From: Hymenobacter cellulosivorans
GTDB taxonomy: Bacteria > Bacteroidota > Bacteroidia > Cytophagales > Hymenobacteraceae
Direction: 5' to 3'
DNA: 64,000 nt
NCBI RefSeq assembly: GCF_022919135.1
Contig: NZ_CP095049.1
Coordinates: 1,488,001 to 1,552,000, forward strand
Below the pieces are notes generated by a model, which ran no database searches, was not told the DNA's origin, and saw nothing but the letters and a program-made list of their open reading frames with translations. The position numbers were made by a program, and so were the translations under genes. This document shows positions 39,727 through 53,121 of the stretch, in pieces. Each line of letters opens with the position of its first letter. The stretch's first letter is position 1.

Positions 39727-40368
39727 ATGAGCGAGGAATTCAAGTTTCAAACTAAAACCGAATCGGAAGGCAAAGTGCTGATGCTGGGCGGCCGCATCTG
39801 CGACTGGCTCCCGATTCTGGATACGCCGGCCGTGCGCTCGGCCGCGGAAGTGCAGGGCCGCATGAGCGTGCTGAACGCGCTGATTAATATATCTTTCCAG
39901 GCCCCCGTCGATATTATCCGCGACTGGCTAACCCAGTACGATTTGTTGGTCTTTCTTTCGGCGGAAGAAGAAGCGCTGCTGCAAAAGGATAACGACGAAC
40001 TAACCGAGCAGGAGCTGATCAACCTGCGCTGGAGTTTGGAAAGCCTTTGGGCCCTGATGTGGGCTACTGGAATGACCGACGAGCTGCAACCCACCGAGTG
40101 GTGCGGCGACAATATGGCTTCGCTGCTGCCTAATTTGGAGCAGAATGAGGACAACAGCAAACTAACTCAGGTGCGGCAGTTGCGGCCCACGGAGGACCTC
40201 TACCGCATGCTCGACTACTACTACCGCCTACACTGGTACTGCGTGGATGAGCGCCTGCACGGTCGCGAGGCGGTGATATCCGAAAGCTTGGTCTATGAGC
40301 GGCGCAAAGCCTTGGAGTGGGTTTTCAACCGCGCCCTGGATTGGGACAACGTGGAGATGAGTACCTAG
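39727..40368 (+). CDS. DUF4272 domain-containing protein
   Basis: 213 residues. The DUF4272 signature is visible: RSAAEVQGRMSVLNALINIS, LTQYDLLVFLSAEEEALL, NLRWSLESLWALMWATGMTD, the RPTEDLYRMLDYYYRLHWYC segment, ESLVYERRKALEWVFNRALDWDNVEMST at the end. It is a soluble cytoplasmic protein without a known reaction; the family is often encoded near toxin-immunity or envelope genes but is also common as a single gene, as here. It is followed by a terminator-like hairpin. Confidence 0.88.
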   Translation: MSEEFKFQTKTESEGKVLMLGGRICDWLPILDTPAVRSAAEVQGRMSVLNALINISFQAPVDIIRDWLTQYDLLVFLSAEEEALLQKDNDELTEQELINLRWSLESLWALMWATGMTDELQPTEWCGDNMASLLPNLEQNEDNSKLTQVRQLRPTEDLYRMLDYYYRLHWYCVDERLHGREAVISESLVYERRKALEWVFNRALDWDNVEMST

Positions 40369-40752: not shown

Positions 40753-42132
40753 ATGCATTTGACCAGTTCTTTCCGTCTGCTTCCGGCTCTGGCCCTGGGC
40801 CTGCTATTATTACCCGGCTGCTACTCCCGCAAGGATATCAAGGAGGAAGCCGGGACCGAAACGCCCACTGAAGTGCCCCCTGCCGAAGCCCCCGGGGCAG
40901 TAGCGCCCAAAGAAACTACGGCGGCAGAAGTTGCTCCCGCCGCGGCTAGCTCCGGCCCCTTAACTCAGGTCAACGTGTTTCTGGAAGTGTCGGGCTCGAT
41001 GGAAGGCTTCATGCCCAAAACGGGCGCCAGTGGCTCCAATACCCGGTTTCAGCAGCATGTGGCGCAGTTTCTGTCGGAAGTAAACCGTAGCTCGGCGGCC
41101 CGCAAAACCTTCCTGCGCATCAAGGAGAAACCCTACCGCGACTCTTACCAGCAACTCTCCCAGACCGTGCGCGGCGGGATTCAGCAGCCGGCCAGCAGCA
41201 CCGACATTCCCACGGTGCTTGATACGCTGGTGGCCAACTACTACGCGCCTAACTCGGTGAGCGTGCTGATTTCGGACTTTATCTACTCCCCGAAAAACGC
41301 CGGTGCCATTCCCTACATCAGCACCGACATTACCGACGCCCTCAACCGGGCCCAGCAGCAAGATCTGGCCGTGTCGGTGTACGGCTACACCTCCGACTTC
41401 CGCGGCACCTACTATCCGGCCCTGACCTCGAGCGTGAAGCGCATCAACAGCTGCTGCGACACGGATATTCCCTACTACTTCTGGGTAATCGGGCCCGCCG
41501 ATGCCGTGCGCCGCTTCGATAATGCCCTGCTCGAAAAGCAGCCCGCCCAGCAGGCCCACTTTGGGGTAAAATACCCCGTGCCGGCTTCGTCCCTGCTGAG
41601 CCGCTTCCAGAACGTAGGCTCCTGGTACTACGGCGAGAAAGACGCCAGCAAACGGGCCGCCGGGGCTTCTTACCACACGGTAGCCGTGAGCAGCGTGTCG
41701 GCCAAGGAGCCGGTGGAGTTCGTGGTCGGCCTGGATTTGAAACAGCTGCCCGGCCTGTACCGTGACGTGAAGTACCTCAAGCCCAACCTGAAACTCCAGG
41801 CCCAGGACACCGACGCGAAGATTATCGACGTGTTTGCCGCCAACGACCAGACGAAAAATAGCAGCGGGGCCGAAAACCAGTACACGCATTTCGTGAAAGT
41901 GCGCGTTACCAAGCTCGGCAAGGCTGCCCGCCCACTCCAGCTCGTGCTCCAGAACCAGCGCCCGGCCTGGATAGGGCAGTGGACCACCAAAAACGACAGC
42001 AATATCAACCAGGCTGGCGCCAAGACCTTTGCCCTGAGCTCCTTGCTCGATGGGGTGGAGGCCGTAACCACTTCTGAGCAGGACAAAGCCCCGGTTTTCA
42101 CCATTCCGCTCACCCTGCAGCCCGCCGACTAG
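40753..42132 (+). CDS. Lipoprotein with von Willebrand A-like domain, first gene of the stator/cytomotive cluster
   Basis: 459 residues with a lipoprotein signal (LALGLLLLPGC, Cys23) and a Pro/Glu/Ala-rich spacer (30-68). The domain from about residue 70 resembles a vWA fold: strand TQVNVFLEVSGSMEGF, then DIPTVLDTLVANY, SVSVLISDFIYSP and LAVSVYGYTSDFRG. The metal-site motif DxSxS appears as Glu78-x-Ser80-x-Ser82, with Glu in place of Asp. The C-terminal half (about 300-459) is beta-rich and unrecognised. Its location, from the lipobox, is periplasmic face of the inner or outer membrane. It leads a run of co-directional genes and would be the envelope sensor or anchor of that system (inference). 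Confidence 0.75.
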   Translation: MHLTSSFRLLPALALGLLLLPGCYSRKDIKEEAGTETPTEVPPAEAPGAVAPKETTAAEVAPAAASSGPLTQVNVFLEVSGSMEGFMPKTGASGSNTRFQQHVAQFLSEVNRSSAARKTFLRIKEKPYRDSYQQLSQTVRGGIQQPASSTDIPTVLDTLVANYYAPNSVSVLISDFIYSPKNAGAIPYISTDITDALNRAQQQDLAVSVYGYTSDFRGTYYPALTSSVKRINSCCDTDIPYYFWVIGPADAVRRFDNALLEKQPAQQAHFGVKYPVPASSLLSRFQNVGSWYYGEKDASKRAAGASYHTVAVSSVSAKEPVEFVVGLDLKQLPGLYRDVKYLKPNLKLQAQDTDAKIIDVFAANDQTKNSSGAENQYTHFVKVRVTKLGKAARPLQLVLQNQRPAWIGQWTTKNDSNINQAGAKTFALSSLLDGVEAVTTSEQDKAPVFTIPLTLQPAD

Positions 42133-42238
42133 TCTCAGTAACGCCCTCCGTAGATTCCCGTATCATCGGCACCCACACTACCGCTTCTCACCCTCGTTTC
42201 ACGCTCCGCAAACCACCGTTTGCCCTACATTCTGCTCT

Positions 42239-42630
42239 ATGAAAGGCTTCTTCCGCTTTATCTACGAACTCATCGGCTCCCCCAGCCCCCGTCCGAAACG
42301 CCGGTGTACCGGGAGGTGATTTTTCCCAACGTGGGTCTGCTCACTATTGGCCTGTCGTTGGCCATGGTGCTGATTTTCTACTACCTGATTAACCGGGCCA
42401 TGGGTGTGGCCACCTTCAATAAAGTGCGGCACTGGGTAACCTTCCTGGTTATCAACGCTCTGCTGGCCTTCATCATCGGTATCTGGCAGGCCAATTCCCA
42501 GGCCGTGGCCTCGCACAGCTACATCTACTGGATGTCGACCTGGAACGCTATTCTGGGCTTGTTCTGGTTTTTTCTGTTCTCGGTCATCCTCAAGCGCGGC
42601 TCGACCAACGCCAGCACGACTCCTTTTTAA
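42239..42630 (+). CDS. Small membrane protein of the cluster, apparent frameshift near its N-terminus
   Basis: From the ATG at 42239 the sequence MKGFFRFIYELIGSPSPRP reads like a good start but soon stops. The adjacent frame (open from a TTG at 42220) continues with ETPVYREVIFPNVGLL and three helices: LLTIGLSLAMVLIFYYLI, WVTFLVINALLAFIIGIW and WNAILGLFWFFLFSVIL. One extra C in the run CCCCC around 42285-42295 would join them into about 130 residues. Translation from the TTG (42220) or a GTG (42304) would also yield the three-helix protein without a shift. Inner-membrane, unknown function; conserved position between the vWA lipoprotein and the tubulin-like gene suggests a membrane subunit. Confidence 0.6.
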
Positions 42631-42642
42631 GTAGAACGTCAA

Positions 42643-42688
42643 CTCCCCTCCTTATCTAAGAAGGGGTACCCGAAGGGCGGGGTGGTTG
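42643..42688. repeat. Intergenic repeat element, family A
   Basis: The block CTCCCCTCCTTATCTAAG through AAGGGGTACCCGAAGGGCGGGGTGGTT resembles a short palindromic repeat that recurs between genes in many GC-rich bacteria (CCCCTCC..AAGGAGGGG, GGGCGGGGTGGTT). It lies just upstream of the tubulin-like gene. Confidence 0.55.
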
Positions 42689-42793
42689 AACCCTCAGAAC
42701 GATTGTCGTTCAACAAACTCCGCCGAGCCTACCCAATCAGCATCATCCCCGCATCATCTACGCCGGGGAGATTCGCCAAACATCAGACTACAC

Positions 42794-44242
42794 ATGGCTA
42801 AACTGTTCATTTTCGGCATTGGCGGCACTGGTTCCCGCGTTATCCGGTCCCTGACCATGCTGCTGGCCTCGGGCGTGAAGCTCGCCAACTGCGACCGGGT
42901 GGTGCCCATCATCATCGACCCCGACGCCCACAACGGCGACATGAACCGCACGGTCGACATGCTCAAGAGCTACCAGCAGATCTACCAGCGCCTGGGCAAG
43001 CGCGACGAAGGTTTCTTCCAGACTGATATCAGCACGCTCAGCAGCATTTCGGCCGACAACAACGGCGGCGTGAAAGATACCTTCGTGTTCGACTTCGGCG
43101 GCATCAACCAGAGCTTCCGCCAGTACCTGAGCTACGACCAGCTGTCCGTCGATTCCAAGGGCCTCGTGGAACTGCTCTTCACTCAGGACAACCTGGAAAG
43201 CCCGCTCACCATCGGTTTCCGCGGCTCGCCCAACGTGGGCAGCATCGTGCTGAACAAAGTGGTGGAGTCGCCAGAAATCCGCTTTTTCGCCGACAACTTC
43301 CAGGCCGGCGACCGGGTGTTCTTCATTTCCAGCATCTTCGGCGGTACCGGCGCGGCCGGCTTCCCGCTGCTGCTCAAGAACCTCAAGGACCAGAACACCC
43401 GCCTGAGCAACGCCCGCTACCTGCGCGACGCCCTCACCGGGGCCGTGACGGTGATGCCCTACTTCGCCCTGCAGAGCGAGGACAACTCCATCATCGACTC
43501 CAACTCCTTCCTGACCAAAACCAAGGCGGCGCTCAGCTACTACGAGCACAACTTGCAAGGCCTCGACGCGCTGTACTACTTGGCCGATACGCCCGACACG
43601 CCCTACGAAAACCAGCCCGGCGGCACGGCCCAGCGCAACAAGGCCCACCTTATCGAGCTGCTGGCCGCCTTGAGCGTGGTCGACTTCATGCAGTACACCG
43701 ATGCTGAGCTACGCAACGGCGGCCCGCACTTCCACGAGTACGGCCTCGGCGTCGACACCCAGGAGCTCAACTTCAGCCACCTGCCCGATGAGTCGCGGGA
43801 GCTGGTAGCCAAGAACCTGACCCAGTTGCTCTACTTCTCGCGCTACCACAAGCAGCATCTGCCCACCGACAAGGCACCCTACTTCGACAACCTGAACCTG
43901 GACCACGCCCTGCGCAACGAGCCCATCTTCAAGGAGCTCAACAACTTCCTGCACAGCCCCGAGTACGGCGTGGACGAGTGGCTGAAGGAGCTGGCCCAAA
44001 ACCGCCGCGCCTTCCGCCCCTTCGACTTAACCACCGACGACTTCAACGCCATGATTGCCGGCAAGCCCGTGGAAAAGAAGTGGAACGACTTCTTTAACAA
44101 AGGTCTCAGCCAGAACTACTTCCTCAATCAGCTTAACGACGCAGCTAAGTCCGTGCAGGAGCCCGACAACTTCAAGAAACTCGTGGCCCTGTTCGACCGA
44201 GTAACCGACAAAGCCTTTGAGGAAAAGGTGAAAGTGGTGTAA
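42794..44242 (+). CDS. Tubulin/FtsZ-like protein
   Basis: 482 residues from the ATG at 42794, which opens into the nucleotide-binding strand. AKLFIFGIGGTGSRVIRSL (Gly8-Ile-Gly10-Gly-Thr-Gly13) resembles the T1 loop of FtsZ/tubulin. FFISSIFGGTGAAGFPLLL (Gly183-Gly-Thr-Gly186) resembles the tubulin signature GGGTG(T/S)G that binds phosphates (T4 loop). Around it are PIIIDPDAHNGDM and AVTVMPYFAL. The protein lacks signal and membrane segments, so it is cytoplasmic. It is much longer than FtsZ's GTPase core, with an insert between the two loops and about 250 extra C-terminal residues. It best fits the non-division Tubulin_2-type families, whose roles are not established. It may also be a Rossmann-like NTPase that only resembles tubulin. 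Confidence 0.75.
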   Translation: MAKLFIFGIGGTGSRVIRSLTMLLASGVKLANCDRVVPIIIDPDAHNGDMNRTVDMLKSYQQIYQRLGKRDEGFFQTDISTLSSISADNNGGVKDTFVFDFGGINQSFRQYLSYDQLSVDSKGLVELLFTQDNLESPLTIGFRGSPNVGSIVLNKVVESPEIRFFADNFQAGDRVFFISSIFGGTGAAGFPLLLKNLKDQNTRLSNARYLRDALTGAVTVMPYFALQSEDNSIIDSNSFLTKTKAALSYYEHNLQGLDALYYLADTPDTPYENQPGGTAQRNKAHLIELLAALSVVDFMQYTDAELRNGGPHFHEYGLGVDTQELNFSHLPDESRELVAKNLTQLLYFSRYHKQHLPTDKAPYFDNLNLDHALRNEPIFKELNNFLHSPEYGVDEWLKELAQNRRAFRPFDLTTDDFNAMIAGKPVEKKWNDFFNKGLSQNYFLNQLNDAAKSVQEPDNFKKLVALFDRVTDKAFEEKVKVV

Positions 44243-44295
44243 CCCCACCCCAATCCTCTCTCCTTGATGCGGAAAATCCGCTGGGAGAGGGGCTC
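44243..44295. repeat. Intergenic repeat element, family B first half
   Basis: CCCCACCCCAATCCTCTC to GGGAGAGGGGCTC, an imperfect inverted repeat right after the tubulin-like stop. It is followed by tandem TAGTTTC units (44303-44330). Confidence 0.5.
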
Positions 44296-44360
44296 TAGCA
44301 GTAGTTTCTAGTTTCTAGTTTTTAGTCTAAAAACAAACTCCCCGAATACCTTGTCTGGCA

Positions 44361-44396
44361 CCCCTCTCCCCGAGGGGAGGGGCCGGGGGTGGGGTC
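44361..44396. repeat. Intergenic repeat element, family B second half
   Basis: CCCCTCTCCCCGAGGGGAGG followed by GGCCGGGGGTGGGG, an inverted repeat of a type scattered between genes in many bacteria; on the minus strand it encodes the familiar spurious peptide TPGPSPRGEG. It ends 6 bp before the ATG of the actin-like gene. Confidence 0.6.
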
Positions 44397-44402
44397 CATG
44401 CA

Positions 44403-47400
44403 ATGCCCAAAGTTCTTCGTCTTCATAACAACGGTTCCCAGCAGGTGCAGGGCTGGCAGAAAACCGCCCCCATCACCAGCACCGAAATCAATACCGTAAC
44501 CGACCCTACGGGTGGGCGGGCCAAGAACGTGGCGGTCAGCATCCCGACGCCCTTTGCGCGGATGCACCTCTTCGAAACGGCCTTCGACTTCCTCGCGAGG
44601 GAAGGGCAGCGCAACCCCGGCTCGGTCTACCACGAGCTGGTGTCGCACTTCTGGGACCTGTTCGAAATCCTTTACAACTACAACCTCTACACCCAGGCTG
44701 GCCGCAAAATCACGCTGCGCCGCTGGAACGTGGAGTCGGAGCTGCGGCGGATGCAGGGCGACGAGGGTACCCGCCTGCTGGGCGAAACCCTGCGCCTATT
44801 CCTGCAGGACGACCGGTTCCGCGACTTTTCGGACATGTACCTCGTGTTCTACGAGTCGCCAAACCTGCCCGGCGGGCCCCAGCTGCTCGGTGGCACGTCG
44901 CCGCTGACGATGTTCTTCACGGCCCCGGCCGTGCGTCAGCTTGACTTAGAACGCGCCCAAGCCCGCGGCCACTACTTCGACAACCAGGTGGTACTGCTCG
45001 AGGACCGGTCCCCGGCTTTCCGGGAGTTTGTTTACGAGCTGTTTTTGGCTTATCCGCAGCTGCAGCGCCGCGATTTTGCCGGCAGCGTATTTGCCGGCCT
45101 CGACCGCAGCATCATCAACCAGATGCAGATGCGGGGCGACCATACAGCCCAGCAGTTTGCCACCAAGTACCCCGCCATTGCCGACTTCCAGGGTAACCTG
45201 GCCAGCGTGAAGCACGTGCCCCTGCCAAGCCGCGCCGACCAGTCGGCCGTGACCAGCTCGGACCTGTTCATTGCGCCCACCCGCCAGACCAACCAAAGCC
45301 GGCCCACGCCGCTGGTGCTGCGCCCCAACCTGACCATGCAGGGGGCCAACTACCTCAACGGCCAGCCCTGGGACGACCGCACGCCGGTGCCCTACGCCGA
45401 CGAGCTGACCCTGGAAAACCGCGTGCTGCCCGGCAAAGGCTTTAAGTACCCGTACCTGACCGTCGGCGACTTCCTGGAAGATGCCCTGGTAGAGCTGCCC
45501 TACGAGCTGAATTCCCAGCGCTTCCACACCGGTAAGGTCACGTTCCAGTACGGGGCCGACACCCAGGGCCGGGCGCGGTTTCCGTACTTGCTGCCCCTGC
45601 GTCAGACCTTCTTCGAGTACTTCTCCGACCACGACCTGGCCGAGCTGCTCACCTTTACCATCGACCTGAACCACGTGCGCATCGCGCTGCGGATTCCGGT
45701 GCAGGGCGGCCGCTTCATCACCTTCGAGCGGAGCTACTACCAGAACCCCCAGAACCCCAAGGACGCGCAGGGTCGCGAAATCCCGGAGAAGGGCCGTATC
45801 GTGAAGGCCAACATCGGGATGGGCGTGTTTCCGTTCTACAAGATGCGGGCCCAGCCCGAGTACAACGACTTTTACAAAGTCATGCTCGTGGACGCCGACA
45901 ACTCGCCCACGATGCTGCAACGCCGCTACGACCTCACGTTCTTCGTGAACGGGGAGCGGCTCACCGACCAAGGCGCGGCTAAGAAAGCTACTAAGTTTGA
46001 GCGCACCCAGAAGAGCGTTTCCACGGCTGGCAGCACCTACTACGAAATCACCGGGACGCACTTCGACCTGGCCGAGCTGACCTGCCCGCCGGCCTTCCAC
46101 GGGGCGCCGCCGGCCCGGGGCCTCATCGTGCCGCGCTGGCGGGAGCTGGACCGCGGCACCCGCCGCTTCACCTTCGCCGTCGACTTTGGCACCAGCAACA
46201 CCCACGTGGCCTATGCGGATGGCCCCTCGGCCCACCCGCGTCCGTTTACCATTGGCGAGAATGATTTGCAGATGGAGCTGCTCAACGCCCCGCTGCCCGA
46301 CACCGGCTACTCGGCCTTCCAGCGCTACATGCGCGGCCCCGGCCAGCTGTTCGACATTCCGCTGATTCAGAACCGCGAATTCGTGCCCAGCATCATCGGC
46401 GAGGCCGGCTCGGTGTATGAATTCCCGATTCGAACGGCTGTGTGCGAGACGAACTCCTACGCCAACGAGCCGAGCAAAGTGCTCAGCAACATCAACATCG
46501 GCTTTAGCATCAACACCGAAACCGGGCAGCCGCCCCAGAACCGCTTCGTGACCAACCTGAAGTGGAGCGCCGAGCTGGACCCCCAGGGCGTAAACCGGAT
46601 TGCGGCCTTCTTCAAGGAAATCTTGCTGCTGATGAAGCACAAGGCGGCCATGCAGGGCGGCATTCTGGAAGACACCCGCGTGGTGTGGTTTGCCCCGCTG
46701 AGCTTCGACATGTTTTTGCGCAACCAGTTCCAGCAGGTCTGGGACGAGGCCTTCCAGCAAATTTTCCGGGCCCGCCGCCCCACTCAGTGCATTTCGGAAT
46801 CGGTGGCCCCGTACTACTACCTCACGGCTACGAACCAGGTAGTGCCCAACCGCGACGAAAACGTCATCAACATCGACATTGGCGGCGGCACCACTGACCT
46901 CCTGATTTTCGCCGAGCAGAAGCCCGCTTTCAGCTCGTCGTTTCGCTTTGCCGGCGACGACCTGTGGGGTGACGGCTACGCCCGGGTGCAGGGTGCACCC
47001 AAGCAGAATGGTCTGTTGCGCCTCGGCGTGCAGTACGTGGAAAGTCTGCCGGACTCGGAGGAAAATCAGGAGTACAAGGGCTACCTGCGGGCGGCCCTGC
47101 AAAACCCTGACTTCGGCTCAGCCGACGTGACTAGCCTGCTGTTTACCTACAACGACGCGCTGCGCTTCACCCAGAGCCTGGGCCTGGGCAAAGGGCGGCA
47201 GCTGCGGGTGCTGTTTTACCTGCACTACACGGCCATCGTCTACCACGTGGCTCAGCTTGTGCAGCACCTCGGCCTCAAGCCCCCGCGCTACCTGTGCTTC
47301 TCGGGTAAGGGCAGTTTGTACCTGCGTCTGCTCAGCGGCGGAGCTAGCATGGCCGCCATTGAGAAAATCAGCAAAGCTGTGTTCAAGGCCGCTACGGGCC

Positions 47401-47873
47401 AGGAAGCGCCCCAGAACTTCCGCGTTATTCTGGCCGACAACCCTAAGGAAGCCACTACCAACGGCGGCGTGCTCTTCGAGGAAAGCGCCACCAGTGCCGC
47501 CGACTTCGACCAGATCCGGACCGTGAAGCTTAACGGCGCTACCGAAGGCCAGGACATCGACACGGCCCGCCTGAAAATGCCGCAAGTAGATGCCGACCTT
47601 AAGCAGAGCGTCATCGACAACACCCGGCGCTTCCTGGAAATCGTGCTCGACAACGACGACGTGGCCCCGCTCATGCGCGAGGTGGGCGTGGACGTGGACC
47701 GCACCCGCATCAAGGAAATCCTGCTGCGCGAAATTGAGGACAGCCTCAACCTGGGCCTGCACCAGATTGGCCGCAACCTCGGCCAGGGCGAAACCCTGCC
47801 CGAAACGCTGTTCTTCTACCCGATGAAGCAGGCCTTGTACAACCTGAGCCGGGAGCTGATTTCGAACGGGTAG
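44403..47873 (+). CDS. Large actin/Hsp70-like (ASKHA) ATPase-domain protein
   Basis: 1156 residues, cytoplasmic. An ASKHA nucleotide-binding core is visible in the second half: phosphate-1 motif FAVDFGTSNTHVAYADG (Asp594), phosphate-2 motif NIDIGGGTTDLLIF (Asp825), and an adenosine-like motif YLCFSGKGSLYLRLL near residue 965. The order and spacing match DnaK/MreB-type ATPases. The first 590 residues are unusual for the superfamily: they contain WDLFEILYNYNLYTQ, FLQDDRFRDFSDMYLVFYESPN and TPVPYADELTLENRVLPGKG, none of which I recognise. The last 130 residues are helical and charged. A distant link to SrfB-like proteins is possible. It is preceded by repeat elements rather than a clean leader. 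It probably works with the tubulin-like protein encoded just upstream. Confidence 0.78.
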   Translation: MPKVLRLHNNGSQQVQGWQKTAPITSTEINTVTDPTGGRAKNVAVSIPTPFARMHLFETAFDFLAREGQRNPGSVYHELVSHFWDLFEILYNYNLYTQAGRKITLRRWNVESELRRMQGDEGTRLLGETLRLFLQDDRFRDFSDMYLVFYESPNLPGGPQLLGGTSPLTMFFTAPAVRQLDLERAQARGHYFDNQVVLLEDRSPAFREFVYELFLAYPQLQRRDFAGSVFAGLDRSIINQMQMRGDHTAQQFATKYPAIADFQGNLASVKHVPLPSRADQSAVTSSDLFIAPTRQTNQSRPTPLVLRPNLTMQGANYLNGQPWDDRTPVPYADELTLENRVLPGKGFKYPYLTVGDFLEDALVELPYELNSQRFHTGKVTFQYGADTQGRARFPYLLPLRQTFFEYFSDHDLAELLTFTIDLNHVRIALRIPVQGGRFITFERSYYQNPQNPKDAQGREIPEKGRIVKANIGMGVFPFYKMRAQPEYNDFYKVMLVDADNSPTMLQRRYDLTFFVNGERLTDQGAAKKATKFERTQKSVSTAGSTYYEITGTHFDLAELTCPPAFHGAPPARGLIVPRWRELDRGTRRFTFAVDFGTSNTHVAYADGPSAHPRPFTIGENDLQMELLNAPLPDTGYSAFQRYMRGPGQLFDIPLIQNREFVPSIIGEAGSVYEFPIRTAVCETNSYANEPSKVLSNINIGFSINTETGQPPQNRFVTNLKWSAELDPQGVNRIAAFFKEILLLMKHKAAMQGGILEDTRVVWFAPLSFDMFLRNQFQQVWDEAFQQIFRARRPTQCISESVAPYYYLTATNQVVPNRDENVINIDIGGGTTDLLIFAEQKPAFSSSFRFAGDDLWGDGYARVQGAPKQNGLLRLGVQYVESLPDSEENQEYKGYLRAALQNPDFGSADVTSLLFTYNDALRFTQSLGLGKGRQLRVLFYLHYTAIVYHVAQLVQHLGLKPPRYLCFSGKGSLYLRLLSGGASMAAIEKISKAVFKAATGQEAPQNFRVILADNPKEATTNGGVLFEESATSAADFDQIRTVKLNGATEGQDIDTARLKMPQVDADLKQSVIDNTRRFLEIVLDNDDVAPLMREVGVDVDRTRIKEILLREIEDSLNLGLHQIGRNLGQGETLPETLFFYPMKQALYNLSRELISNG

Positions 47874-47907
47874 GAATCAAATCAGTAGTTGCTAGTGCTG
47901 CTGACTT

Positions 47908-48321
47908 ATGAAATACATCTGCAAGTTGTTTCTGCTTCTTCTCCTGCCCCTGAGCTCTTGCTTTTGGGGCAGTGAGTTTGAAGAGGAACACATTACTGGC
48001 AAGTATTACACTTCAGGGTATGAGCATTGGCAACAGCCTATGAGTGCAGTTTATCTGTATTTCAAGGAAACTGATGATGAGGTGTCGGAAGCGTTAATCC
48101 CGGAGATGCTTGAAGCAGTAGGAGCCAATGAGAGGTATGTAGTCTTGAAAGGCTTTGGTGAAGACCATTACTACATTGCTAGAGTAGTATCTGGTGCCGA
48201 CCGAAATACCGCACGCAAGAATATACTTGGCCCGCTTGATAAGAGTACCTTTTATCAAAAACTGCAACAGATGAATGGTGATACGGCCCTACGTTTCACG
48301 CACCATTATCAGATGTTGTAG
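47908..48321 (+). CDS. Small lipoprotein of unknown function, low GC
   Basis: 137 residues with a lipoprotein signal (YICKLFLLLLLPLSSC, lipobox LSSC, Cys18). The mature part (FEEEHITGKYYTSGYEHW, YVVLKGFGEDHYYIARVV, LDKSTFYQKLQQMNG) is not a family I know. Its base composition is clearly more AT-rich than the flanking genes. It sits 34 bp after the actin-like gene and 26 bp before the next, so it is probably co-transcribed. It resembles an accessory or immunity-type gene inserted into the cluster (inference). Confidence 0.7.
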   Translation: MKYICKLFLLLLLPLSSCFWGSEFEEEHITGKYYTSGYEHWQQPMSAVYLYFKETDDEVSEALIPEMLEAVGANERYVVLKGFGEDHYYIARVVSGADRNTARKNILGPLDKSTFYQKLQQMNGDTALRFTHHYQML

Positions 48322-48347
48322 CCCGTCTACTTTCCTTTCCCTTCCAT

Positions 48348-49937
48348 ATGACTTTTCCCCGCCGCCTTGTTTCCCTCCTTAGTGCTCTGCTGCTAACGGC
48401 TACCAGCGTGTCCGCTCAAACGCCCCTCGGCCAACCCACACTTGACGAGCAGAAGGTACAGATCTGGTGCGCTACGGTGCGCTACGTGTACGACGACAAC
48501 AACCGCCCCAACCTAAAGAGCAGCCTGAACTGCGGCGGGTCGTTGCCGGAATTCGTGACCAGCATCAAGGCCGACAGCCAGAAGGTGTACAGCATGCTGT
48601 ATCAGCCGCTCGAAGGCAAGGGCACGATGTACAAAGGCCTGGGCTCGGATAAGTCGCGCCTGCAGAAGCTAACCACCGAAATCATCAACAAGCTGCAGGC
48701 CTCACCCGCCCGCAAAGCCGACGCGGCTCGGATGGCTAAGCTCAACACGCTGAAAGAGCAGCTCGATACGTATCTGGCGAACGGAACCCCTCCCGCTGAT
48801 CTGAACAGCGACGTAACTGCCGGTGGGGCCGATACCGAAGACACTTCCGTAGCCGACGAAGCCACGCTAGCTGCTGCGGATGCTGGAGCAGGGCAGGGGA
48901 CCGTAGAAGCTAATACGATGGCACCTCGCCCGGCTGCGGCCAGTGAAAGCCTGATGAATAAGCTTTTCGCTCCGCTGGCTCTGATTCTGTCTTTGCTGAG
49001 CATCTTTCTCTACGTGATGCTGCGGCGCAGCATTAGCGCCCTAGGCACCCGCGCCGACCGACACCGTAGTGAACTGGAATCGGTGAAGGCGGCAGCTATG
49101 AGCGGTAGTGCGCCCTCAGCTGGGGTAATAGCGGCAGCCGGTGTGCCTAAGCGTATGACGCCGGAGTTGCAGCGCGAAATTGAGCGAATTGTGCAGCAGC
49201 GCGTGGCGGAAGAGCTTGCCAAGCAGCAACCAACAGCGCAGCCAGCCAAGGTGGAGAAACCCGCTCCGCAGCCAGCCGCTCAACCTCGTCCGGCCACGGG
49301 CCCGGCCCGGCCGGTTACTGCGGCCCCAGCGCAAGCTCCTGCGCCGGCTCGTCCGGTAGCTTCCGCGCCGGCTCCTGTAGCTTCCGCACCTCCCGCCCCG
49401 GCGCAAAACCAGTTTCAGAATATTGAATCGGCACCGACAACGTATGCGCCACCAATGCCGATGCAGGAAACGGCCCATACGCCGCAGCCAATTCCATCCG
49501 GCTCCCCAGCCTCAGCCCCGCGCGACGAATTCGACAGCCTCGTGCCACCGGTACAGCTGCCCGGCCCCGAAACCTGGGAAACTCCGGCCCCCGTGGCTGC
49601 AGCGCCCATTACGCCTGCCCCGACACGCTACTATGTGAAGGTGCCCGTGAATGGGGGATTTAGCGACTACGACCTACAGGATCAGCCCCAGCACGACAGT
49701 ATCTACGAAATTACGCCTGACCCGAAAGTGCCCGAGCGGGCCACGTTCCGGGTGACTTCCAACACCAGCGTCCACGCCTACGCTATTCAAAGTGCCCAGT
49801 ATTCGTTGCGTGAGGCTTGTGCCTACCAGCAGCCGAATGGCCCGGTGTCGCGCATCGTGACCGACAAGGCCGGGACGCTGATTAAAGGCAACGGAGCCTG
49901 GCAGATTGAGCTAAAAGCTGCTATCCACTTTGAATGA
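48348..49937 (+). CDS. One-TM protein with periplasmic domain and Pro/Ala-rich cytoplasmic linker
   Basis: 529 residues. Residues 1-23 are a signal peptide (LLSALLLTATSVSA); residues 24-200 form an exported domain with Cys41 and Cys62, which could pair. A membrane helix lies at 205-226 (KLFAPLALILSLLSIFLYVML), followed by basic residues (RRS), so the C-terminal part faces the cytoplasm. Residues 230-295 are a coiled coil (PELQREIERIVQQRVAEELAKQQ); 295-430 are Pro/Ala-rich; and 434-529 are a compact domain (RYYVKVPVNGGFSDYDLQDQ, ATFRVTSNTSVHAYAIQS). It overlaps the next start by four bases (ATGA). It could link the cytoplasmic filament-like proteins to the envelope stator. Not a recognised family. 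Confidence 0.72.
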   Translation: MTFPRRLVSLLSALLLTATSVSAQTPLGQPTLDEQKVQIWCATVRYVYDDNNRPNLKSSLNCGGSLPEFVTSIKADSQKVYSMLYQPLEGKGTMYKGLGSDKSRLQKLTTEIINKLQASPARKADAARMAKLNTLKEQLDTYLANGTPPADLNSDVTAGGADTEDTSVADEATLAAADAGAGQGTVEANTMAPRPAAASESLMNKLFAPLALILSLLSIFLYVMLRRSISALGTRADRHRSELESVKAAAMSGSAPSAGVIAAAGVPKRMTPELQREIERIVQQRVAEELAKQQPTAQPAKVEKPAPQPAAQPRPATGPARPVTAAPAQAPAPARPVASAPAPVASAPPAPAQNQFQNIESAPTTYAPPMPMQETAHTPQPIPSGSPASAPRDEFDSLVPPVQLPGPETWETPAPVAAAPITPAPTRYYVKVPVNGGFSDYDLQDQPQHDSIYEITPDPKVPERATFRVTSNTSVHAYAIQSAQYSLREACAYQQPNGPVSRIVTDKAGTLIKGNGAWQIELKAAIHFE

Positions 49938-50332
49938 GCTACCGGGGAAGTCTGAACCGGGCCCGGCGTACTGATTTGCCTCTGGCATGGCGAATAAGCT
50001 CGTTCCGCTCCTGTCTGGTTTGTTGTTGTCGGCTGATAGGCCAACACCAGCCGCTCCCCCCGGACTGGTATAAAACGCAACTGCTGAAGTTTTACCAACT
50101 TCGGTTTGGAATAGGCCTTCAGCCAATGCCGACTGCCGATACGTTGCTGGCGGCTATTCAGGATTTGGAAAGTCGGCGTAACCAGTATTTAGCACGTATT
50201 CAGCTCTATCAAAAACGACGTATTCGGGAGAAAGCCCGGGCCTGCCGCCAAATTAGCCGCGTAGCGTGGCCCTATAATGGCTTTTTGCCCGATGATTGGC
50301 TGTTATCAAACGATACCTTTTTTGCATATTGA
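49934..50332 (+). CDS. Hypothetical protein of the cluster
   Basis: 132 residues, start overlapping the preceding stop (ATGA), which suggests translational coupling. The C-terminal part (PDWYKTQLLKFYQLRFGIGL, LESRRNQYLARIQLYQKRRI) looks like a real helical, charged protein; the first 35 residues (RSCLVCCCRLIG) are less convincing, so a later start is possible. A cysteine cluster at about 28-32 could be functional or chance. Lower GC than its neighbours. No family recognised. Confidence 0.5.
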   Translation: MSYRGSLNRARRTDLPLAWRISSFRSCLVCCCRLIGQHQPLPPDWYKTQLLKFYQLRFGIGLQPMPTADTLLAAIQDLESRRNQYLARIQLYQKRRIREKARACRQISRVAWPYNGFLPDDWLLSNDTFFAY

Positions 50333-50338
50333 CTCGCT

Positions 50339-50360
50339 GGTCAGCGCATTTGCGCTGACC
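50339..50360 (+). promoter_or_regulatory. Hairpin ahead of the stator A gene
   Basis: Perfect 9-bp arms GGTCAGCGC and GCGCTGACC with loop ATTT, followed by TTTG. It lies between the stop at 50332 and the ATG at 50389. It may attenuate transcription or shape translation of the stator genes. Confidence 0.55.
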
Positions 50361-50388
50361 TTTGCATTTCGCTCCCGTTCAAGTATTC

Positions 50389-51846
50389 ATGCTCGAAATC
50401 ATCCTCGAAGTCGTCGTCGTCGCCATCGTCGTGGGCCTGCAGATTCGCACGTTTCTGCAAACCCGTGCCCAGGCGCTACGACTCAGCCAACTCTACCCGG
50501 CCCGTGACGCCTTGCGTGTGGAGCGTCGCCTCGTAACGCCGGCTGGAATAGATTTGCCCGATTACGCCGCCGACGCGCCAGCCGATTCGTTTCTGGTTGA
50601 CATTATCAAGGTTGATAACGTATCGGAGGGTTTCCGCGAAATTGTCGACGACACCAACGGCTACCTGCGCTACAACAAGGGCGCGGCCGACTTCAGCATC
50701 CTCAAAGACATTTCCGAGCGCCAGAGTCAGGTGCTGGAAAACGCGGTGCAGGCCAACGTGGCTACCCCGCTCTACCTGGGTTTGCTGGGTACGTTTCTGG
50801 GCGTAATTCTGGGTCTCGTAGGTATTGCCCGCAACGGCGTATCGGACGACGAAGCCCTGACGCCCTTCCTGACCGGGGTGCTGATTGCCATGACCGGCTC
50901 CTTCGTAGGCCTGCTGCTTACGCTGCTCGGCAATGGCCTCGTGCGCAACGCCCACCAGCAGCTCGACCAGGCCCAGAACAACTACTACACCTTCCTGCAG
51001 GCCCGGCTGCTACCCATTCTGCACTCGGATATGGCCGGCAGTCTGTCGAACCTGAAGGCGGTGCTCGACGCTTTCAACCAGGATTTTGTCAGCAAAGTCA
51101 CGGTGTTCGAGCCCGTCATTGGCACGCTCACGGAAAACGTGAAGGTGCAGCGCGACTTTCTGATGCGGCTCAACGAAATCGGGTTCGATAAGATGGCCTC
51201 CGCCAACGTAGCCGTATTCGAGAAGGTAAGCCAGTCGGCCGAGATGTTTGGGCAGTTTGTGGGCTACCAGGAGCGGCTCAACCAGATGCTGGAAGACGGC
51301 ACCGAAACGGCCCGGGCCGTGAGCAGCATTCTGGACCGGCTCGTGGGCTTCGAGCGAGGCATCAACAACGTGGGCCAGTACATTGGACAGCACGACAATT
51401 TAGTGCAGGCCCAGCTCGACTTCTTCCAGCGCCACCAGAAGGAAATGGGCAACCTGGCGGCCCGCACCGAGCAATACTTCGACGAAGCCACCGGCCGCCT
51501 CACCGACCTGATGCAGCAGCGCCTGAGCTTCCACGAACGGGACGCCCAGCAGGCCTACGAAAAGTGGCAGCAGCACTTCCAGAAGCTCAACGAAGACAAC
51601 GTTTTCGACCGAATCCGCCAGTACCTGGAGCCCTTCAAGAACCTCAACGGCCAGCAAGAAGCCCTGAACCGTGACGTAACGGCCACTCAGCGGGAGCTGC
51701 TGCGCAAAATCGAGCTGGACTCCCAGATTCAGGCTAAGCTCTTGTCCGAGCTGTCGAACCTGAACACGGTGCTGGTCAAGGCCACGTCCAAGAACCGGTT
51801 TCAGCGGTTTATGGATAGTCTGTTTGGTGGCGTGCGGCCGCAGTGA
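50389..51846 (+). CDS. MotA/TolQ/ExbB-like stator protein with long cytoplasmic tail
   Basis: 485 residues from the ATG at 50389. Three helices are visible: 3-19 (EIILEVVVVAIVVGLQI), 127-147 (LYLGLLGTFLGVILGLVGIA) and 160-182 (LTGVLIAMTGSFVGLLLTLL). The GLLGTFLGV and TGSFVGLLLTLLGN segments match the conserved pore region of the MotA/TolQ/ExbB proton channel family. A tail of about 290 residues (190-485) is helical and coiled-coil-like (RQYLEPFKNLNGQQEALNRD), longer than in MotA or TolQ and recalling ZorA of the Zorya defence system. It is expected to form a pentamer in the inner membrane with the OmpA-type partner at 52444. Confidence 0.82.
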   Translation: MLEIILEVVVVAIVVGLQIRTFLQTRAQALRLSQLYPARDALRVERRLVTPAGIDLPDYAADAPADSFLVDIIKVDNVSEGFREIVDDTNGYLRYNKGAADFSILKDISERQSQVLENAVQANVATPLYLGLLGTFLGVILGLVGIARNGVSDDEALTPFLTGVLIAMTGSFVGLLLTLLGNGLVRNAHQQLDQAQNNYYTFLQARLLPILHSDMAGSLSNLKAVLDAFNQDFVSKVTVFEPVIGTLTENVKVQRDFLMRLNEIGFDKMASANVAVFEKVSQSAEMFGQFVGYQERLNQMLEDGTETARAVSSILDRLVGFERGINNVGQYIGQHDNLVQAQLDFFQRHQKEMGNLAARTEQYFDEATGRLTDLMQQRLSFHERDAQQAYEKWQQHFQKLNEDNVFDRIRQYLEPFKNLNGQQEALNRDVTATQRELLRKIELDSQIQAKLLSELSNLNTVLVKATSKNRFQRFMDSLFGGVRPQ

Positions 51847-51849
51847 GCA

Positions 51850-52422
51850 ATGCAAATCAGTTCTCGTATTCAGCAAGCAATAGTCTGTTTGCAAACGGTG
51901 GGCTCTATTACGACGGATCAGCCGGAAACCTTCTTGACAGAGCTAAAGAGCTGCATTAGAAATCACGTTCAGGGTATACTTGACCATTATAGCCAGAATA
52001 GGCTTCAGCCGGAGCACACAACATTTATTCGGCTTTTTCAGGAAGCGCAAACAGCGGATTTACCAGTTTCGGCCTACGCCCTGGCCGAATGCAAGCGTAA
52101 AATCAATGAGTTGGTCATGGTTTGGACCGCAAGTGCGGAGCTACTATGGCATGCTGGTCGTGATTTGCACACCTTTATTAAATGCGTGAACGATGCGCTC
52201 TACGAGTTGGTAGTGTATAAAGTAGGCTGGTCGGAGGAAATTCAGCTTGAGCCGCTGGAAGCTTGGTATTCGGAACCGGAAGGCGAAGTAGTTATCAGTG
52301 ATGTGCATCAGTGCCGGCGCGTAAATGGGGACACATATATGGGTTCAGCTACCTTGCGCCCTGCTACGAAAACTGAGGTAATAGCCGCCAAGCTGTATGA
52401 CTACTATCAGAATTTAGATTAG
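51850..52422 (+). CDS. Hypothetical protein inserted between the two stator genes
   Basis: 190 residues, cytoplasmic, lower GC than both neighbours. Helical segments (LTELKSCIRNHVQGILDHYS, ALAECKRKINELVMVWTASA, LLWHAGRDLHTFIKCVNDAL) followed by a beta-like C-terminal part with tandem tyrosines. Only 3 bp after the stator A stop and 21 bp before the stator B start, so it must be in the same transcript. Separating the usually adjacent stator pair is unusual. No family recognised. Confidence 0.6.
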   Translation: MQISSRIQQAIVCLQTVGSITTDQPETFLTELKSCIRNHVQGILDHYSQNRLQPEHTTFIRLFQEAQTADLPVSAYALAECKRKINELVMVWTASAELLWHAGRDLHTFIKCVNDALYELVVYKVGWSEEIQLEPLEAWYSEPEGEVVISDVHQCRRVNGDTYMGSATLRPATKTEVIAAKLYDYYQNLD

Positions 52423-52443
52423 CTGCCCACCTAATAACCCACC

Positions 52444-53121
52444 ATGAACGACTCGCAAAACCGCTCTTCCAACGACTTCTTCTGGCCCAGCTACGTGGAC
52501 CTGATGACGTCGCTTTTCGTGGTGATGCTGGTCTTGTTCGTGTATAGCTTCAAGCTGTTCAAGGACCGGGAGCACGACCTGAAAACGGCCAACGGGGAGC
52601 TCAAAGCCAAGGCCGAGGAACTAGAGCAGATTACCAAGATTCGCAACTCCCTGAAGCGCCTCGAGGGCCGCTACTTCAAATACGACCCGGCCCTGGAGCG
52701 GCACGAACTGCTGGTGCCGGTGCAGTTCAAGTCGGGCCGCGACGAAATTCAGGAAGCCTACAAGCCCGCCCTGCTGCAGGCCGGCCGCACGCTGCGCTCG
52801 GTGCTCAAAACCATCAAAACCGAGCAGCCGGTGCGCTACTTGGTTATTGTGGAAGGCATGGCTGCCCGCTACGCCGGCAATGATGCCCGCAACCGCGCCG
52901 AAGAGCAGCTCACCTACCAGCTTAGCTACCGCCGGGCCCTGAATCTGCTCAACTTCTGGAAACAGAATGGCCTCGACTTCAGCCAGGACAGCGGCGTCGA
53001 GCTCATCATCGGCGGCAGCGGTTTCTTCGGCACCGGCCGCTACCGGGGCGCTCAGGAGGGCCAGAACAAGCGCTTCCTGATTCAGGTGATTCCGAAGATT
53101 GGGCGCATAACGCGGCAGTAG
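52444..53121 (+). CDS. MotB/OmpA-like stator protein
   Basis: 225 residues. One N-terminal helix (PSYVDLMTSLFVVMLVLFVYSF) contains Asp19 in the position of the ion-binding aspartate of MotB (YVDLMTSL). A coiled coil follows (residues 40-72, KTANGELKAKAEELEQITKI). The rest resembles an OmpA peptidoglycan-binding domain: VPVQFKSGRDEIQEAYKPAL, TLRSVLKTIKTEQPVRYLVIVEGMA and QLSYRRALNLLNFWKQNGLD. It should anchor to the cell wall and form the ion channel with the protein at 50389. The start is ATG in the usual place with no alternative. Confidence 0.85.
   Translation: MNDSQNRSSNDFFWPSYVDLMTSLFVVMLVLFVYSFKLFKDREHDLKTANGELKAKAEELEQITKIRNSLKRLEGRYFKYDPALERHELLVPVQFKSGRDEIQEAYKPALLQAGRTLRSVLKTIKTEQPVRYLVIVEGMAARYAGNDARNRAEEQLTYQLSYRRALNLLNFWKQNGLDFSQDSGVELIIGGSGFFGTGRYRGAQEGQNKRFLIQVIPKIGRITRQ

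Follow-up and report, generated by a model that had tools for sequence, protein, structure and literature searches.

Do genes for a tubulin-like protein, a giant actin/Hsp70-like protein, a MotAB-type stator pair and a vWA-like lipoprotein, found side by side, belong to a single system, and what could such a system do? This question is raised by a gene cluster of Hymenobacter cellulosivorans, located at 40753-53121 of a 64,000-nucleotide stretch that we call the window (C1:1488001-1552000 of a one-contig 6.1 Mb genome). A preliminary description had listed ten co-directional genes with short gaps here, and its coordinates were right: all ten open reading frames (ORFs) are on the + strand, with spacing of -4 to 163 bases (Table 1). 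Seven are the subject of what follows, namely the vWA-like lipoprotein, a small protein with three transmembrane (TM) helices (3-TM), the tubulin-like protein (TUB), the giant ASKHA protein, a linker protein, and the MotA- and MotB-type subunits. We find that the cluster is inherited as a unit, an ordered cassette. As to what it encodes, we infer, at roughly even odds (ca. 50%), a single cell-envelope machine made of several proteins; the best reading is an ion-driven, peptidoglycan-anchored machine coupled to a nucleotide-driven scaffold, which would resemble ZorAB or Agl-MreB while being a member of neither.

Joint inheritance was assessed at 108 TUB loci, comprising 46 near loci (45 from Hymenobacter and one from Solirubrum), 25 divergent loci of the same genus (20 picked from 120 genus genomes and five from a search of the order), 30 from other Cytophagales and 7 from other Bacteroidota. 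Homologues at the near loci number 46 for vWA, 46 for 3-TM, 46 for TUB, 45 for ASKHA, 44 for the linker, 44 for MotA and 43 for MotB. The parts found are collinear in 46/46, and all seven stand in the order vWA-3TM-TUB-ASKHA-linker-MotA-MotB in 43; the remaining three (L007, L011 and L035) are short and lie at contig ends. At the 25 divergent loci the corresponding numbers are 25, 24, 25, 25, 24, 24 and 22, with all seven ordered in 21. In the remaining four, MotB is missing from L098 and L144, both at contig ends; L158 holds another version of the cluster; and L097 carries a pair of linkers, the higher-scoring of which is inverted. Thus, the co-occurrence in other genomes that a joint system would call for was observed, the exceptions being loci that lack ASKHA or the stator. 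Within the genus the stator is retained at all loci with enough flank, except L158. The TUB gene is present in 120/120 genus genomes, mostly as one match and with a weakest best E of 9.8e-60; it is split in two pieces in G087, G540, G552, G583, G603 and G612, and the window TUB is 100% identical to that of loci in H. metallicola and H. nitidus. Pairwise distances at 68 loci correlate strongly (TUB-ASKHA r=0.992, TUB-MotA 0.978, TUB-vWA 0.968 and TUB-MotB 0.943), values to which shared ancestry contributes and which stand without a housekeeping-gene control, the site labels being hand-assigned. The ten genes had all been counted as parts of the system; seven are indeed conserved, but those at 47908, 49934 and 51850 have tblastn matches in only 7/46, 2/46 and 2/46 near loci. 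They are small variable genes between core genes, as if the gaps of the operon were gene collectors.

The cassettes occupy several distinct chromosomal neighbourhoods. The canonical flanks are ordinary genes (LemA, TPM, NTP transferase and prolyl oligopeptidase), and at L097 a second linker gene lies between them (L097:5576-7189, - strand). The divergent cassette of L097 is inverted, and next to it lie the canonical flanks and a linker relative of full length (44% over 519 aa). This arrangement suggests replacement of one cassette version by another. At L158 a true Hsp70 (L158:3460-4998, - strand; E 7.5e-70) follows vWA-3TM-TUB-ASKHA, and this Hsp70 and two further proteins replace the stator.

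The tubulin and actin/Hsp70 folds initially proposed are both supported, and neither protein proved to have another fold. TUB has an N-terminal FtsZ-like domain with a glycine-rich GTP loop, G10-G11-T12-G13, in which T12 is kept in 42/43 sequences and the other positions in 43/43; the second loop, F182-G-G-T-G186, is kept in 43/43. The C-terminus of this 482-aa protein is helical in the structure model. The ASKHA protein has the actin/Hsp70-type phosphate-1 and phosphate-2 motifs and fold, with D594, G596, D825, G827 and G828 kept in 94/94 sequences and G829 in 90/94. Its fold assignment covers residues ~586-1036, ~585 N-terminal residues lying outside it, and Foldseek TM-scores across whole chains are low for both proteins. 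The motifs first quoted for TUB and ASKHA are therefore present in the window and conserved across homologues. Two closer identifications were rejected. TUB is not FtsZ proper, the sole TIGR00065 match of the genome being elsewhere (C1:2893748-2894704), and the suggested comparison of ASKHA with SrfB fell under the cut-off (11.5 vs 27.1 bits), with 2/21 family members matching at E<=0.5. On one contig, L103, an uninterrupted frame of 1630 aa, ended by the contig edge, spans both TUB and ASKHA; it is one among the 108 TUB loci and possibly an assembly artefact. Because the TUB profile included this fused ORF, many ASKHA ORFs matched it too, so TUB matches of >900 aa were dropped, with L103 kept in the homologue counts.

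For the lipoprotein, profile comparison and family searches differ. Aligned by hhalign with a vWA profile built from 19 vWA domains of eight genomes, a twentieth piece from L168 being empty, the lipoprotein profile gave a probability of 88%, an E of 2.9e-6 (for a one-profile comparison) and a score of 43.9, while six control pieces, taken from the cluster's own proteins, scored 10.5-16.4. The vWA families in Pfam, however, match 0/23 members of the lipoprotein family, and a PDB sequence-profile search with the lipoprotein gave no match. Among 71 sequences, Cys23 is kept in 70, E78 in 67 (Asp in 4), S80 in 70, S82 in 65, M83 in 71, T150 in 63 and D175 in 71. The three-helix protein does start near 42239, as had been described, but in the window copy 4 stops interrupt the frame that begins at this point. 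Compared with L001, where the gene is open, the frame shifts in a C-rich stretch near 42280. This frame change is either an assembly error or a real lesion. Judged by eye, the linker consists of a signal peptide, a periplasmic part, one TM helix, a Pro/Ala-rich cytoplasmic part and a conserved C-terminal domain.

Pfam, PADLOC and NCBIfam scans were made of nine of the ten cluster proteins (all but the 132-aa ORF at 49934) and of the product of the DUF4272 gene upstream. The MotA-type subunit scored 22.5 bits against MotA_ExbB from the ORF start used and 25.2 when read from the genome (cut-off 22.9), with a weak match to PADLOC ZorA2 (E 9.6e-5). Its T135 is kept in 75/76 sequences (one gap) and its S171 and T178 in 76/76; by eye, a tail of ~290 aa extends beyond the last TM helix. 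In the MotB-type subunit, Asp19 and Arg164 of the OmpA motif are kept in 71/71. The window copy matches PADLOC ZorB1 at E 1.6e-13 and Pfam OmpA at E 0.0059 only, and 14/14 family members match ZorB1 models. The MotB-type profile reached PDB 8vvn_B at E 1.9e-11 and the "Chemotaxis motB protein" 6ysf at E 0.029; we take PDB 8vvn and 8qyd to be Zorya structures. Scores in NCBIfam were far under the cut-offs (ZorA2, 19.5 bits vs 700; ZorB1, 23.5 vs 400). The preliminary description had noted that the stator recalls ZorAB, and PADLOC, the PDB profile and the ZorB1 models all support a stator closer to ZorAB than to flagellar MotAB. The conservation of the channel residues and of the OmpA Arg speaks for a functional 5:2 motor that is anchored to peptidoglycan.

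Published systems offer several points of comparison, which we draw from the accessible parts of the papers cited. Function of ZorAB in Zorya needs the ZorA tail, ion flow and peptidoglycan binding (PMC11890865). Shared with it are the MotA/MotB-like pair, the Asp of the B subunit, the Ser/Thr residues of the A subunit, a peptidoglycan-binding B subunit and a cytoplasmic A tail, which is ~290 aa long here, the deletion in the ZorA I tail mutant having covered 460 residues (PMC11890865). Unlike Zorya, the cluster has the tubulin-like and giant ASKHA proteins in place of ZorC, ZorD and ZorE, and all genus genomes searched carry TUB. The reported absence of ZorC, ZorD and ZorE holds for the nine scanned cluster proteins and ten flanking proteins, in which PADLOC found neither these nor a type III effector. 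Conflict systems have been predicted in which vWA and a special GTPase accompany either a tubulin theme or an Hsp70 theme, the two not overlapping (Kaur et al. 2020; PMC7159879), and these DO-GTPase/GAP1-N2 systems share with the cluster tubulin-domain or Hsp70 proteins neighbouring vWA and TM proteins (PMC7159879). They have a TRAFAC GTPase and GAP1, and their tubulin theme is, in the accessible text, limited to firmicutes and actinobacteria (PMC7159879); here, in contrast, the tubulin and ASKHA genes are direct neighbours or fused, and there is a stator as well. In the nine scanned proteins Pfam gave no match to a TRAFAC GTPase or GAP1, bar a chance-level E of 0.048 on the MotA protein, the presence of GAP1 models in Pfam being unchecked.

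An anti-phage or conflict role was among the first ideas for this locus. The cluster would then be a sensor of the Zorya type, with TUB and ASKHA standing in for ZorC and ZorD, or a Bacteroidota cousin of the GTPase/tubulin/Hsp70/vWA conflict systems. Such a role would suit a B subunit that is nearest ZorB, versions that differ between sites of one genus, with one apparently replaced at L097, variable small genes among the core genes, variable downstream modules, the true Hsp70 in the same-genus version L158, and the prediction of conflict systems that combine vWA with tubulin or Hsp70 (PMC7159879). Defence systems are patchy, however, whereas TUB is in every genus genome. Neither a nuclease nor an effector was matched in the nine scanned proteins, ten proteins encoded in the ordinary flanks have no PADLOC match at E<=0.001, and the phage records searched with TUB gave no match. 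We set defence behind the envelope machine because of this genus-wide presence and the lack of effector or island signals, and consider it unlikely. The occurrence of TUB in all 120 genus genomes sampled favours a standing envelope role, that is, a standing cell function in Hymenobacter rather than an optional defence island.

In wider samples, TUB was found in 40/148 genomes of the order and 13/395 of the phylum (Bacteroidota). ASKHA was found at E<1e-6 in 11/395 Bacteroidota genomes, a line set after seeing a gap from 2.0e-8 to 3.5e-5, and all 11 also have TUB. We rejected counting every ASKHA-profile match as a carrier, since 129/140 genomes scored <22 bits over a short phosphate-2 stretch as in FtsA. 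Two TUB genomes lie outside the 11: in G325, locus L134 holds an ASKHA ORF by iterated profile, and in G523, TUB carries a stop and the locus, L133, has a stator. Five distant ASKHA queries reached one named Thermoanaerobaculia metagenome-assembled genome (the ASKHA protein only). TUB also matches six plasmid records, including a 1.77 Mb Prevotella replicon in which vWA, TUB, ASKHA and a short linker are consecutive and a stator was not found. Homologues at the 30 loci from other Cytophagales number 19 for vWA, 18 for 3-TM, 30 for TUB, 22 for ASKHA, 17 for the linker, 5 for MotA and 4 for MotB, and all seven are ordered in 4/30. Profile matches show the complete stator pair at L129 and L133, two of the seven loci from other Bacteroidota. 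The far relative L132 has the order MotB-vWA-3TM-TUB-ASKHA-linker-like-MotA, with an OmpA match at E 1.2e-16 for MotB and a MotA-like protein at 22.3 bits, just below the cut-off. Thus vWA-3TM-TUB-ASKHA is the usual core and TUB its most widespread part, and the stator, being mostly missing outside the genus, is a module that is near-fixed within it.

Other genes adjoin the core in other genera. A trypsin-like protease (L077:15565-16623, +) and a YkuD L,D-transpeptidase (L128:16502-17113, +) adjoin it at two stator-less loci, and an F7-family aspartyl protease lipoprotein is near it at stator-less L101 and L102; the retropepsin-like Pfam identity of the F7 family comes from the copy at L110:1367-1984 (-), a locus that has a stator. 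The L,D-transpeptidase and proteases point to peptidoglycan or periplasmic outputs. At L134:1672-3563 (-), without a stator, three TerD-like genes (two confirmed by Pfam) adjoin TUB-ASKHA and a 482-aa protein, a possible link to Ter stress systems. The 192-aa protein of L131 has no Pfam match that would make it TerD-like, nor do the 467-aa protein of L131 and the 482-aa protein of L134 have one that would make them actin-like. Two observations by eye concern flanking sequence: the beginning of an ORF similar to contractile tail sheath proteins (L079:19475-19900, +) lies ~8 kb from a lone TUB, and four tandem ORFs of 445-583 aa with a common GWD motif lie upstream of the cluster at L108:94-6416 (+).

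Makarova and Koonin (2010) predicted membrane neighbourhoods of FtsZ-like, vWA and OmpA proteins (PMC2875224), and a 2023 paper on the FtsZ/tubulin family treats Tubulin_2 proteins as a separate group, sparse in occurrence and divergent (PMC9871819). The FtsZ-like 1 or Tubulin_2 neighbourhoods share with our cluster a divergent FtsZ-like protein, vWA- and OmpA-domain partners and membrane proteins (PMC2875224). In a membrane-remodelling system of this kind, the shaping or pinching of membrane by TUB and ASKHA filaments would be the chief task and the stator a side module. Tubulin_2 matches 22/23 TUB family members at E<=0.5 and is the label on 7 among 120 listed proteins, the vWA and OmpA partners are those predicted in 2010, and many loci are without a detected stator. 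Yet the window TUB reaches 16 bits against a curated cut-off of 27, the whole of its own genome has 0 Tubulin_2 matches, and TUB has roughly half as many residues as the founding 1051-aa protein (PMC2875224). In FtsZ-like 1 the N-terminal domain is followed by an extended coiled coil and a helical C-terminal domain; of these, the model of the 482-aa TUB shows the helical C-terminus. ASKHA and MotA partners are not mentioned for FtsZ-like 1 in sections 4, 6 and 7 of that paper, and the P-loop GTPase or kinase partners of FtsZ-like 1 have no clear Pfam match in the nine scanned proteins. The genus, moreover, keeps the stator wherever the flank suffices, except at L158. We consider it unlikely that membrane remodelling is the main function.

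Several observations weigh against an envelope machine built on a stator and cytomotive filaments. The T7-type catalytic acid of TUB is unclear, D297, aligned to FtsZ T7 by eye, being Asp in 33/43 sequences, so that GTP-driven polymerisation of TUB is putative only. Neither stator gene was found in 25/30 loci from other Cytophagales, several of them ended by contig edges; the stator is therefore not the defining part. TUB occurs without ASKHA in 8/30 of these loci. Three of the eight (L078, L081 and L086) end <=3.2 kb past TUB, but L079, L082, L085, L087 and L096 lack ASKHA although 8.7-9.2 kb of sequence follow TUB; L096 retains vWA and 3-TM. L133 has TUB pieces and a stator, with no ASKHA found. 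Finally, MotB at the "Dd" sites (L148 and L150) is 76% identical to MotB of site B, TUB 45% only; MotB thus seems partly uncoupled from TUB between sites, as though swapped alone. The stator is near-constant in the genus, but a joint system of tubulin with MotAB, as first envisaged, is too narrow: in other genera the core is mostly without a stator, and even in the genus L158 has Hsp70 in its place.

Hymenobacter are mostly non-motile, some species gliding, which counts against a compact adhesion or gliding machine like myxobacterial Agl-Glt. In such a machine the vWA lipoprotein would serve as adhesin, and the stator would run along a track of the actin-like protein. The parts list does resemble Agl-Glt, which has an ion-driven stator, the actin homologue MreB and the vWA protein CglB (PMC13104615). 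The proteins themselves are different, however, and no tubulin-like part is named in the accessible text (PMC13104615; Glt proteins were not searched for here). The Bacteroidota gliding treated in that paper is powered by GldLM/T9SS (PMC13104615), and no motility family was matched by Pfam among the cluster proteins scanned. We regard this explanation as very unlikely. Force transducers with vWA domains adjoining motors were described in 2025 and, as here, place a vWA protein beside a 5:2-type motor, Bacteroidetes included (PMC12204202). Those have a TM helix and TolQ(R)-like motors (PMC12204202), whereas our cluster has a lipoprotein, a ZorB/MotB-type partner, tubulin and ASKHA.

In the envelope machine that we favour, MotA and MotB would assemble as a 5:2 rotary unit powered by ions, which the OmpA-like domain of MotB would fix to peptidoglycan. 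Given that ion flow, peptidoglycan binding and the tail are all needed in ZorAB (PMC11890865), the long cytoplasmic tail of MotA would be the obvious means of reaching TUB and ASKHA in the cytoplasm. Together with the bitopic linker and the 3-TM protein, this tail may dock TUB and the actin-like ATPase at the inner membrane, where the two could build a scaffold or short filament that is switched by nucleotide. As the partner in the outer membrane or periplasm, the vWA lipoprotein would bind a ligand or a surface. That a stator, an actin homologue and a vWA protein can be united in this way is shown by the Agl stator, which works with MreB and CglB (PMC13104615). Ion flow via the stator might then move the trans-envelope assembly, or signal the state of the envelope to the scaffold, the output being envelope upkeep or repair, or holding the cell to surfaces. 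In other Bacteroidota the same core may be fitted with other output modules.

How much of this is new can be stated within limits. The system had been called undescribed, but FtsZ-like/vWA/OmpA neighbourhoods (2010, PMC2875224) and tubulin or Hsp70 with vWA (2020, PMC7159879) were already predicted; what appears new is the link of ASKHA and a stator to these, which we did not find in the literature searched. A survey of MotAB proteins does not mention tubulin in its accessible text (PMC12505986). A system of tubulin, ASKHA and stator was likewise not found in the accessible literature, including PMC5898192 and PMC7824862, preprints and most subscription journals being outside the search.

Near the cluster, a DUF4272 gene (39727-40368; Pfam E 1.4e-38) lies directly upstream, with matches in 5/46 near loci and a PADLOC PDC-S32 match at E 0.026 only. 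Window positions 33902-36415 encode a DUF5122 beta-propeller protein carrying a type 9 secretion sorting tail. The VIA family lists give best families only, and the absence of other families from them is uninformative.

Table 1. Genes of the Hymenobacter cellulosivorans cluster, in window coordinates.
Feature	Position	Strand	Remarks
vWA-like lipoprotein, 459 aa	40753..42132	+	lipobox Cys23; MIDAS-like E78-x-S80-x-S82-M83, T150, D175
3-TM (TM3), small three-helix inner-membrane protein, ~130 aa	42239..42630	+	frame change near 42280 in window copy
TUB, tubulin/FtsZ-like GTPase-fold protein, 482 aa	42794..44242	+	
Giant ASKHA protein, 1156 aa	44403..47873	+	actin/MreB/Hsp70-type domain ~586-1036; helical C-terminus
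Small putative lipoprotein, 137 aa, variable, non-core	47908..48321	+	no Pfam/PADLOC match
Linker protein, 529 aa	48348..49937	+	signal peptide, one TM helix, conserved C-terminal domain
Variable ORF, 132 aa	49934..50332	+	
MotA/TolQ/ExbB/ZorA-type channel subunit, 485 aa	50389..51846	+	C-terminal tail ~290 aa
Variable ORF, 190 aa, in MotA-MotB interval	51850..52422	+	no Pfam/PADLOC match
MotB/ZorB-type subunit, 225 aa	52444..53121	+	TM helix with Asp19; OmpA-like domain

More tentatively, the cluster may define a trans-envelope machine of a new class: a composite filament of tubulin and actin type, with a 5:2 rotary unit, ion-driven and anchored in peptidoglycan, coupled to it mechanically. 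If so, it would be, to our knowledge, the first case of both cytomotive folds, fused in a single lineage, acting as one unit with an ion motor. The tubulin and actin/Hsp70 folds, usually studied apart, would be tied to that motor in one heritable unit, and the roles of ZorAB-type stators would widen past defence. Because TUB is in all 120 genus genomes, with named Hymenobacter strains among the carriers, the function is directly testable by deletion. The machine would then be a standing organ of the whole genus, refitted with other output modules across Bacteroidota.

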